Notes under the pieces: generated by a model
Seen by the model: the letters and a program-made list of their open reading frames with translations, nothing else
What the model was told of the DNA's origin: nothing
Databases searched by the model: none
Made by a program: the position numbers and the translations under genes
In this document: piece after piece, positions 60,885 to 64,000 of the stretch
Position numbering within the stretch: the first letter of the stretch is position 1
Layout of the letters: each line of letters opens with the position of its first letter
NCBI RefSeq assembly: GCF_001701045.1
Contig: NZ_CP016757.1
Span: 2,382,219 to 2,446,218, forward strand
Reading direction: 5' to 3'
Length of the DNA stretch: 64,000 bases
Source: Cloacibacillus porcorum
GTDB taxonomy: Bacteria > Synergistota > Synergistia > Synergistales > Synergistaceae

Positions 60885-61145
60885 TCACATGCAATTGCCC
60901 CACATACTCATCACGATATCCCGCAGATCGCCGGGGCCGAACAGACGGCGCTCCTCTTCCGTCATGAGGTAAAATTCGCGGCAAAGCACGTCGTCCAGTT
61001 CCTTGGGGGTGAATGAGTATCCGAGCACGCGGGGTGCCATACCACGTTCATTTTTGGGCAGCATGGCGATCTCAATACATTTACCGCGTATGGTTGTATC
61101 TTCCATCAGGTCGCGGAAGAATCGTTTCGCGTCTTTTAAGCGCAA
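60885..61145 (-). CDS. Nif11-like leader peptide family protein
   Basis: 86 residues from TTG 61145, eight bases after AGGAGTG. LKDAKRFFRDLMEDTTIRGK (3-22) and GYSFTPKELDDVL (42-54) reproduce the Nif11 leader pattern (FxxxLxxDxxxRxK ... GYxFTxxEL). After the leader part comes a 32-residue tail with two Cys (CREFYLMTEEE, DIVMSMWGNCM) but no Gly-Gly cleavage motif. No modifying enzyme or exporter is near, so a RiPP precursor is only a possibility. Function unknown. Confidence 0.66.
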   Translation of the reverse strand: MRLKDAKRFFRDLMEDTTIRGKCIEIAMLPKNERGMAPRVLGYSFTPKELDDVLCREFYLMTEEERRLFGPGDLRDIVMSMWGNCM

Positions 61146-61432: not shown

Positions 61433-63330
61433 TTATTTCACGTTTTTGTCTTTTCTCACTATACGGGGAACGAACGCCAGAAGGGCGAGTATGCCCATAC
61501 CCAGACCCGCGTTGCAGCCGCCGCCCGAACCGCCTGAGGGCGTCGGTCCCGGGGCTGGTTTTGCCGTCACGGTTATCTCGGATTGTTTTTCGTAGAGAGT
61601 GCCAGCCGAGGTTGTGACTTTTGCCGTCACAAACGCTCTGCCGGCGGCCAGCGCGGTTATCTTTGCCTTTGCCGGCTCTCCCGCTAGGGCGGACGCTTTA
61701 AGTATCTTTTCGTCGCTGACGCGCCACTCTATTTCGCTGATGGTCTCGGAGGTATCCACGGGATAGAGGAATGCCGATATCTCCATCGTATCTTTTTCGA
61801 TCAGCTCCGCTTTCGGGATATTGAGGTTGAGCCCCTCGAAGGGTTGTGTCACGGTGACTGTGCAGGAGTCGGTGATATTGCTCTTTACCGTCGTCGCCGT
61901 TATTGTCGCCGTGCCGGCTTTGTGCGCCGTTAACTTTCCGGCGCCGTCAACGGAGACGATATCAGGAGCGCTGCTGATCCAGCCTATATCTTCTTTTGCG
62001 TCCACGGGCGAATAGCCTACGTTAAGCGTAGCGGTTTGGCCTGCGGCGAGGTCAAGAGAGGAGGGGGCCACGGAGATGGATTTCAGGTCAGGGAGTACGT
62101 CCGGCGAGAGTGCTTTGATATCTCTGCCGTTTCCCGTCAGACAGACCGGCACGCCGGCAAAGTCTGTCTTGCCATCGCCGTTGTTGTTGTTTCCCTCTAC
62201 AAAGATATAGACCTCTTCGCTATCGTGGTATTCGGGAATGACGAAGGTTGCGGTTCCGTTTGCCTTGGAGTCATCTTCAAGGCTCTTTATCCGTCCGTAG
62301 TACAGCGCCCTGTCTCCGCTGGTCACAACGGCGGCGAGGTGGTAACCCGCGCCCGTCGAGGCGCCGGAGTAACTCACGTCAATGCTTGTGCCGGCGGTGA
62401 TGGCGCCACTGGTCAGGTCGGCGGAGGTCAGTTTGTAGGTGTTTGTGGCGAGGGTCAGTTTGTGTTCGGTAAAGTCTCTCGACGTTGGTATATGCGTGTA
62501 TATGCCGTCATACACCTGTTTCTGAAGCGCAGTGACCACTCCGGCGTCTTTCCCGCCTGCGGCGGGAGAGGTAAAGATGATGTTTTTAAGATTCAGACGA
62601 AAAGCCGGACGGAGGCCGGCAGACCCAAAGTCAACGTAGTAAGCGTTGAGGTAGCCGGCGCTACGGACGCTCGACGCCGAGCCTACGATGTTGCCGGGGG
62701 AACGAAGCCACCAAATACCATACTTTTTATTACCACTAGTATGGTTGATGACTCCCCGCGACACGCTATAGTCGGTAAGCTCCGCTTCGCGGGAACCAAT
62801 ATCGACAAAACCGTATTTTTTGCCCAGCGCCTGTGCGTTATTGGAGTCGTCAACATCGGCGTAGGAGAGGAGGAATATTTTATCGGTCGTCTTAGGACCG
62901 GTGGGAGCACCCTGTGTGCTCGAGTTGTCCACCGCCGCCTTTATTATCCCGCTGCCTTCGCCCGCGGAGAAGGCCTTGTCGTAGAAGGAATAACCTTTTG
63001 GGTTCGTCACCGTTATCTCTGTCTTGTCCGCGGAGACCGACCCGACATATTCTTTACCGTTGAGGAATTTGCGGATCTGCGATTCGCTCCACCAGCAAGC
63101 CCACTCCGGTCCTATATTTGGGTTGAATTGCACGCCGCCGTCCAGTATCTTTTCCGAAAGCGTGAGCGCCGCGGCGGGCCGCGCCGTGTTCAGTATTAGT
63201 GTAAGTGAAAGTAAGAGAAGAATTAAAATAAAGGGACAGGGATATCTTAAACTCGACTTTACTTCTTGGGGGGAGGGGCACTCTCGTTCAATACAAAAAT
63301 ATTACAGTGGTCTCTGTTCTGAGTTTTCAA
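61433..63330 (-). CDS. Synergist-CTERM surface protein (DUF6273 + Big_2), frame broken at a C6 tract
   Basis: A long frame from 63133 to 61433 encodes DUF6273 (contains WWLRSPGN, GLRPAFRLN), a middle beta region, Big_2 Ig-like repeats (about 370-450 and after), and a C-terminal Synergist-CTERM (GGSGGGCNAG, helix, RIVRKDK). GTG 63133 is not the true start: the same frame continues upstream through a signal peptide (LILLLLSLTLILNTARPAAA) but finds no ATG/GTG/TTG before a stop. The well-spaced AAGGAG and TTG 63330 read 23 codons in another frame, MKTQNRDHCN on, ending at TAA 63261-63259. One extra C in the C6 tract would fuse them (632 residues). Off state, pseudogene or sequencing error. Confidence 0.82.
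63268..63278 (-). repeat. homopolymer C4-T-C6 tract (minus strand) in the surface-protein start
   Basis: Plus strand GGGGGGAGGGG: G6 at 63268-63273 and G4 at 63275-63278. It lies between the start codon (63330) and the signal peptide. Length change here would switch the reading frame. Confidence 0.85.
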
Positions 63331-63388
63331 CTTAGTTCGCTCCTTCGTTATTGTTTTCACCTTATTGGTAGGTAGTTTTACTTAGTGC

Positions 63389-63418
63389 AGTATAGCATAA
63401 TTTACTTAATCCAGGCAA
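63389..63418 (-). promoter_or_regulatory. probable promoter of the surface-protein gene
   Basis: Minus strand TTGCCT (63418-63413), 18 bases, TATACT (63394-63389), about 50 bases upstream of TTG 63330. It abuts the stop of the sigma factor gene. Confidence 0.6.
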
Positions 63419-63419
63419 T

Positions 63420-63956
63420 TTATTCGTTCAGCGCCTTTTTTATCTTTTTACGGATTGTTTTAAGGCGCGCCGCGACCGCCTGCTGGCTGACGCCCAGGGT
63501 ACGCGCGATCTCCCGCTGGCTGTAACCGCCTATGAGCGCCTGGGTGATGTCGAACTCATCGGGGGAAAGGGCGCGCATGAGCATCTCGCGCAGTTCGATT
63601 TCACGGTAGTTTTGTTCTTCCGCGCCAAGTATCTCTTCCAGCTCTTCGAGCGGCAGCCCTTTGCCGACGGCGTGCGCGCGGCGGAGACGCGCCGCGGCGT
63701 CCCTTATGTATCCGGGCAGGTGGTTTTTGAGGAAGCACGCGAGCCATTGGGGGTCGGGGCATTTGGGGACGAGGATGAGCAGCGCGAGACAGCCCTCCTG
63801 CACGAGGTCGTCGTATTCCGCGCCGCGTCCCTGGTAGCGTTTCGCGACGGCCTTTACAAGCGGCTTGTAGGCACGGACGGTATCAGGAACGGAAACGGGC
63901 TCCGGTCGTGGTACGGGTAGGGGAGACAAGTGAACGTTCTGGTTCTCTTTCTGCAT
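63420..63956 (-). CDS. sigma-70-family RNA polymerase sigma factor (SigH/ECF-like)
   Basis: 178 residues from ATG 63956, which follows GGAGGA by ten bases. Region 2 is partly seen in YDDLVQEGCLALLILVP, and region 4 as DEFDITQALIGGYSQREIAR and GVSQQAVAARLKTIRKKIKK (helix-turn-helix). Region 2 is shorter than in SigA, so it is an alternative factor. It directly precedes the surface-protein gene and may control it (inference). The tail of an N-terminal proline-rich linker PLPVPRPEPVSVP is unusual. Confidence 0.85.
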   Translation of the reverse strand: MQKENQNVHLSPLPVPRPEPVSVPDTVRAYKPLVKAVAKRYQGRGAEYDDLVQEGCLALLILVPKCPDPQWLACFLKNHLPGYIRDAAARLRRAHAVGKGLPLEELEEILGAEEQNYREIELREMLMRALSPDEFDITQALIGGYSQREIARTLGVSQQAVAARLKTIRKKIKKALNE

Positions 63957-64000
63957 TGTCGCAGTCCTCCTTATTGGGTTTTGTAAAGTCAAGGTGTGAC

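Follow-up and report, generated by a model that had tools for sequence, protein, structure and literature searches.

Among the systems described so far, Neisseria meningitidis offers the closest counterparts to the locus analysed here, in nalP and mspA, which encode poly-C phase-variable autotransporters with tracts ranging from 6 to 15 residues and give a product at every third length, nalP being ON at 7, 10, and 13 C and mspA at 6, 9, and 12 C; both are single Neisseria genes, with evidence from strains and immunoblots (PMC3723659). Homopolymeric-tract contingency loci have also been described at the scale of the Neisseria phasome (PMC5953494), and frame transitions have been linked to phase variation (PMC3711429). 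As in nalP and mspA, the tract studied here lies within the coding sequence of a predicted surface protein, and as in contingency loci generally, many such loci occur per genome, belong to surface proteins, and are ON or OFF depending on the frame. In contrast to the two Neisseria genes, the layout is shared by many Synergistaceae loci, the tract separates a leader from an extended signal peptide, and the system is known here from sequence alone. Phase variation is known chiefly from a few pathogens. Our literature search found no paper joining it with Cloacibacillus or Synergistota, and the Synergistetes papers that it did find describe no such system in their titles or abstracts.

The window, i.e., the whole 64,000-nucleotide stretch of Cloacibacillus porcorum DNA that was analysed, carries one such locus near its end (Table 1). 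Comparison with its relatives gives good support to poly-C phase variation of these predicted surface proteins at the level of the family, and the copy in the window is probably a worn member of this multi-locus system, OFF, and either locked or rarely switching. At each locus, a good Shine–Dalgarno site and start are followed by 13 to 18 leader codons and a poly-C tract read as prolines. After the tract come a signal peptide with an N-terminal extension and a large predicted surface protein, in most cases ending in a Synergist-CTERM tail. In the proposed mechanism, replication slippage at the tract would add or remove C residues, so that one third of the lengths would fuse the leader to the signal peptide (ON) and the other two thirds would soon meet a stop codon (OFF). 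The window copy is one base short of ON.

Table 1. Features of the window locus (window positions) and of the related retroelement loci (contig positions).
Feature	Position	Strand	Support or remark
Sigma-70-like gene, upstream of leader	63420..63974	(-)	Pfam Sigma70_r2 8.5e-11; NCBIfam sigma70-ECF 1.6e-21
Promoter-like TTGCCT-18-TATACT	63389..63418	(-)	Conserved 3′ of sigma-like genes at L009, L010, and L013
Shine–Dalgarno AAGGAG	63340..63345	(-)	Identical in L009 and L010
Leader frame, TTG 63330 to TAA 63261-63259, 23 codons, OFF register	63259..63330	(-)	Peptide shared exactly with L009 and almost exactly with L010
Interrupted poly-C tract CCCCTCCCCCC (C4-T-C6), one base off the signal-peptide register	63268..63278	(-)	Pure C10 in L009, C9 in L010 and L011
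Long frame, open over 607 codons and then closed by a stop, without usable start 5′ of the signal peptide	61433..63256	(-)	
Signal peptide segment SSLRYPCPFILILLLLSLTLILNTARPAAALT	63160..63256	(-)	Near-identical in L009 and L010
Scar of in-frame deletion of 39 residues (SADVVYYG...KTALM missing) at CGGCGCT direct repeat	63155..63170	(-)	Alignments
DUF6273 domain, N-terminal strands missing	62591..63091	(-)	PF19789 1.8e-16
Segment homologous to template/variable repeats of the diversity-generating retroelement (DGR)	62605..62719	(-)	29 mismatches to template; 12/17 template A positions covered, P 2e-5
Big_2 Ig-like domain	61859..62083	(-)	PF02368 4.5e-15
Synergist-CTERM-like sorting tail, CNAGLGMGILALLAFVPRIVRK region	61466..61528	(-)	TIGR04564 18.4 bits, cut-off 22.5
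DGR (reverse transcriptase, Avd-like ORF, template repeat), L012	G000:C1:3140446-3142598		
Variable repeat in DUF6273 protein, L011	G000:C1:47383-47497		

A first-pass annotation of this DNA had described a promoter, a Shine–Dalgarno site, a TTG start, and a short leader frame, and every one of these elements was found in its place. The promoter scores 9/12 against the consensus, is sigma-70-like with an extended -10, and was found once where 0.4 matches were expected; the leader encodes the peptide MKTQNRDHCNIFVLNESAPPPKK. The same annotation had placed the signal peptide and the large ORF in the frame reached by one additional C, which is where the 607-codon frame lies, and its observation that this frame lacks a start was borne out, as no ATG, GTG, or TTG occurs between the upstream stop of the frame and the signal peptide, the earliest GTG (63133) being located past the latter. 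With the leader frame closed by its TAA and the long frame one base away, the gene is OFF as sequenced, as had been proposed. The C6 run on which the proposal was centred (63273–63268) is present, but it is half of an interrupted tract, preceded by T63274 and by CCCC at 63278–63275, both of which had gone unmentioned. Runs of C6 or G6 occur five times in the window, and those of length 5 occur 56 times; C6 is thus frequent enough for the window site to prove little by itself, and the evidence above chance comes from paralogues and relatives, not from the window tract alone.

Near-identical copies of the sigma-like gene, with 92–96% DNA identity at the 3′ end, precede L009, L010, and L013. In addition, the window gene and these same three loci are each followed by a conserved 86-aa ORF (window 60885–61145), with no match in Pfam or NCBIfam.

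With regard to the encoded protein, the 39-residue loss sits at the start of DUF6273 relative to L009 and L010. The sorting tails of the window protein and of L010 (21.8 bits) both score under the curated cut-off of TIGR04564, which is exceeded by those of L052, L054, L057, and L061. As to the tract, changes of one unit shift the protein in or out of frame with a translated start, the window copy requiring +1, but its pure run is shorter than the homopolymer of at least about 7–8 that is expected near the 5′ end of the coding sequence in such phase-variable loci, a length that eight paralogous loci reach with C8–C10. Short or interrupted runs slip far less than pure runs of at least 8. Given a longest pure run of 6, the interruption of the tract, and the lost residues of DUF6273, the window copy is probably locked OFF or slow to switch, a judgement based on general knowledge of how slippage depends on tract length.

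The genome to which the window belongs is complete (3.585 Mb, one contig), and it was searched at the DNA level for sequences related to the leader and to the domain; C tracts were located by pattern search, and every C run of at least 8 was mapped. Such runs are found at 25 places (7 C8, 13 C9, 3 C10, and 2 C11), the count thus rising from C8 to C9, whereas shorter runs show the opposite trend, a decay. Eight further loci showed the same order of elements as the window: a Shine–Dalgarno site and start lie 40–54 nt ahead of a pure C8–C10 tract, and a signal peptide and then a large ORF follow the tract. The tract is C10 in L009, C8 in L052 and L057, and C9 in L010, L011, L054, L059, and L061, so that its length differs among paralogues of one genome, a comparison between paralogues and not between isolates, as also in genome G043. 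L009 and L010 share the TTG and Shine–Dalgarno site of the window, with a leader peptide that is identical in the former and nearly so in the latter. The leaders of the other tract loci are unrelated, with good Shine–Dalgarno–ATG starts: L011 has an ATG leader of its own with C9 in frame, and in L052, L054, L057, L059, and L061 a good Shine–Dalgarno site and ATG lie 46–52 nt 5′ of the tract, with the signal peptide directly after it. In most products of these loci, Big_2, Glug, or invasin-like domains are accompanied by a Synergist-CTERM tail.

The register could be read directly at each of the nine loci, window included. Two are ON (L011 and L061), three require one more base (the window copy, L052, and L059), and four require one base less (L009, L010, L054, and L057). 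All three registers are therefore represented, which is what independent drift in length gives, and the ON fraction (2/9) is no better than chance. L015 was excluded from this count because an insertion sequence (IS) has replaced its start. L013, truncated at an IS, is another remnant. The genes in the OFF state retain intact ORFs of about 580 to more than 1300 codons, with pairwise dN/dS of 0.31–0.79 (window versus L009, 0.64; versus L010, 0.35), ratios that are rough because the genes are mosaic and fast-evolving. Long frames kept open in OFF genes, together with these ratios, indicate that the genes have been constrained, and presumably also expressed, over a large part of their history.

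Copies of a two-ORF IS (144 + 276 aa) were located just 5′ of several poly-C tracts (L009:4745-6054, L010:2149-3458, L013, L015, L063, and L068), and in L009 the element sits between the promoter and the Shine–Dalgarno site. Poly-G tracts on the coding strand were observed too, one inside the signal peptide at L053:3449, with a 987-codon ORF out of frame, and others 70–360 nt 5′ of large ORFs (L071, L066, and L069); these are possibly further switches.

In order to look across the family, the pattern GGAG-N(4,12)-ATG-N(24,50)-C8 was used with its reversed form as control, nested hits from long tracts being included in the counts. The pattern was found 13 times in the genome of the window, 24 times in G043, and 10 times in G006, the last two from two other Synergistaceae genera, versus no match of the control in any of the three. 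The remaining members of the family showed few matches, some of them with equal numbers of control matches. Ten loci in G043 have leaders such as MLEEKTESYDNSLNKGTPPP, followed by signal peptides and CTERM tails or long ORFs, and in 6 of the 10 the frame could be followed as far as a CTERM-like tail inside the region examined. Two of them (L121 and L123), with flanks near-identical to each other, are in frame, and the others are OFF, with a stop a few codons from the tract. Part of the variation in this genome is the consequence of C-to-T substitution with the total length kept (C9T versus C10), so that the change in length is limited to 10 versus 12. Two fitting loci were found in G006 (L131 and L132), both OFF. 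Scanning a collection of species-level genomes, and viral contigs as well, gave no further copies.

A C12 tract in G001 (L073) was discarded as a family member, as it precedes a different operon and not a relative of the window protein. Separately, the ORFs behind the C10–C12 tracts at L015, L070, and L073 resemble one another in a VARVIDASLPGKAGQRY-like segment, and the next protein at L015 and at L073 has trimeric-autotransporter-like repeats.

The poly-C phase variation suggested by the first-pass annotation is thus well supported by sequence for these proteins, as the layout recurs at eight other loci and in other genera, but free switching of the window copy is unlikely in view of the interrupted tract and the deletion. 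That the window copy is a fully active switch, toggled by C6/C7 slippage alone, appears improbable to us: it is one base from ON, with promoter, Shine–Dalgarno site, and leader conserved and the 607-codon ORF intact, but its pure run of 6 is interrupted by a T, versus C8–C10 in the paralogues, and its protein lacks 39 residues of a domain. A better case, though still an unlikely one, can be made for a decaying pseudogene in which the tract is a relic without present role, since the interrupted tract, the OFF register, and the internal deletion are found combined, and L013 offers another remnant; however, 607 codons have been kept without a stop or a further frameshift, and the dN/dS values against L009 and L010 denote constraint over most of the history of the gene. 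This reading is close to that of a worn, rarely switching member, the difference being mainly one of degree.

An error of sequencing or assembly in a gene that is truly in frame seems very improbable. Homopolymers often give rise to indel errors, and most of these loci are a single base out of register, but a C6 broken by a T poses little difficulty in sequencing, in-frame copies exist at two loci, and separate assemblies show the same layout. Recoding by a programmed shift of the ribosome or by slippage in the transcript, joining the frames with the DNA unchanged, is less probable again: consecutive CCC codons can in principle be slippery, but a shift of fixed direction would hold one register, and it was rejected because the paralogues occupy all three, requiring 0, +1, or -1. 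The least probable is translation from an internal or rare start inside the long frame, which would make the tract irrelevant. In its favour, the paralogue L012 has an ordinary ATG start and lacks a tract; against it, L009 and L010 keep the leader with its Shine–Dalgarno site and TTG, unrelated leaders at the other tract loci have good starts as well, and an internal start was rejected because no start codon precedes the signal peptide in the window. The reading that we retain is thus a worn member of a poly-C switching family.

The DUF6273 proteins of this genome are also connected to a DGR. The genome encodes one reverse transcriptase (3141445–3142047), accompanied by a putative Avd-like ORF, identified by reading the sequence, and by a template repeat. 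Variable repeats that differ at template A positions were found in L012, adjoining the reverse transcriptase (7/8 mismatches at template A), and in the distant L011 (7/7). The homologous segment of the window gene may be an ancient relative of this set of repeats and would then be a former, or at least an old, target. These parts (reverse transcriptase, Avd-like ORF, template, two variable repeats, and A-directed mismatches) are those of DGRs in general, but here the target L011 also bears a poly-C leader, and the template itself holds an in-frame TAA. A stop codon within a DGR template was unexpected; both variable repeats read TGA at that position, so that L011 and L012 are at present truncated in the middle of DUF6273, and L011 combines an ON leader (in-frame C9) with a stop in its variable repeat. 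As a tentative proposal, somewhat short of an even chance, the Synergistaceae may carry genome-wide poly-C switches on Synergist-CTERM proteins, spread as cassettes of leader, tract, and signal peptide, and in one lineage layered on a DGR, with the same lectin-like proteins both hypermutated and switched.

Annotation may miss such proteins or get them wrong, since they would truly start 5′ of the tract, in a different frame. The overlap with the DGR would unite two mechanisms of variation within one protein family, and the poly-C loci would constitute a ready set for the measurement of switching. If true, the Synergistaceae would possess a multi-locus poly-C system, with near-identical leaders placed before different surface proteins, by which this phylum would vary its surface stochastically.
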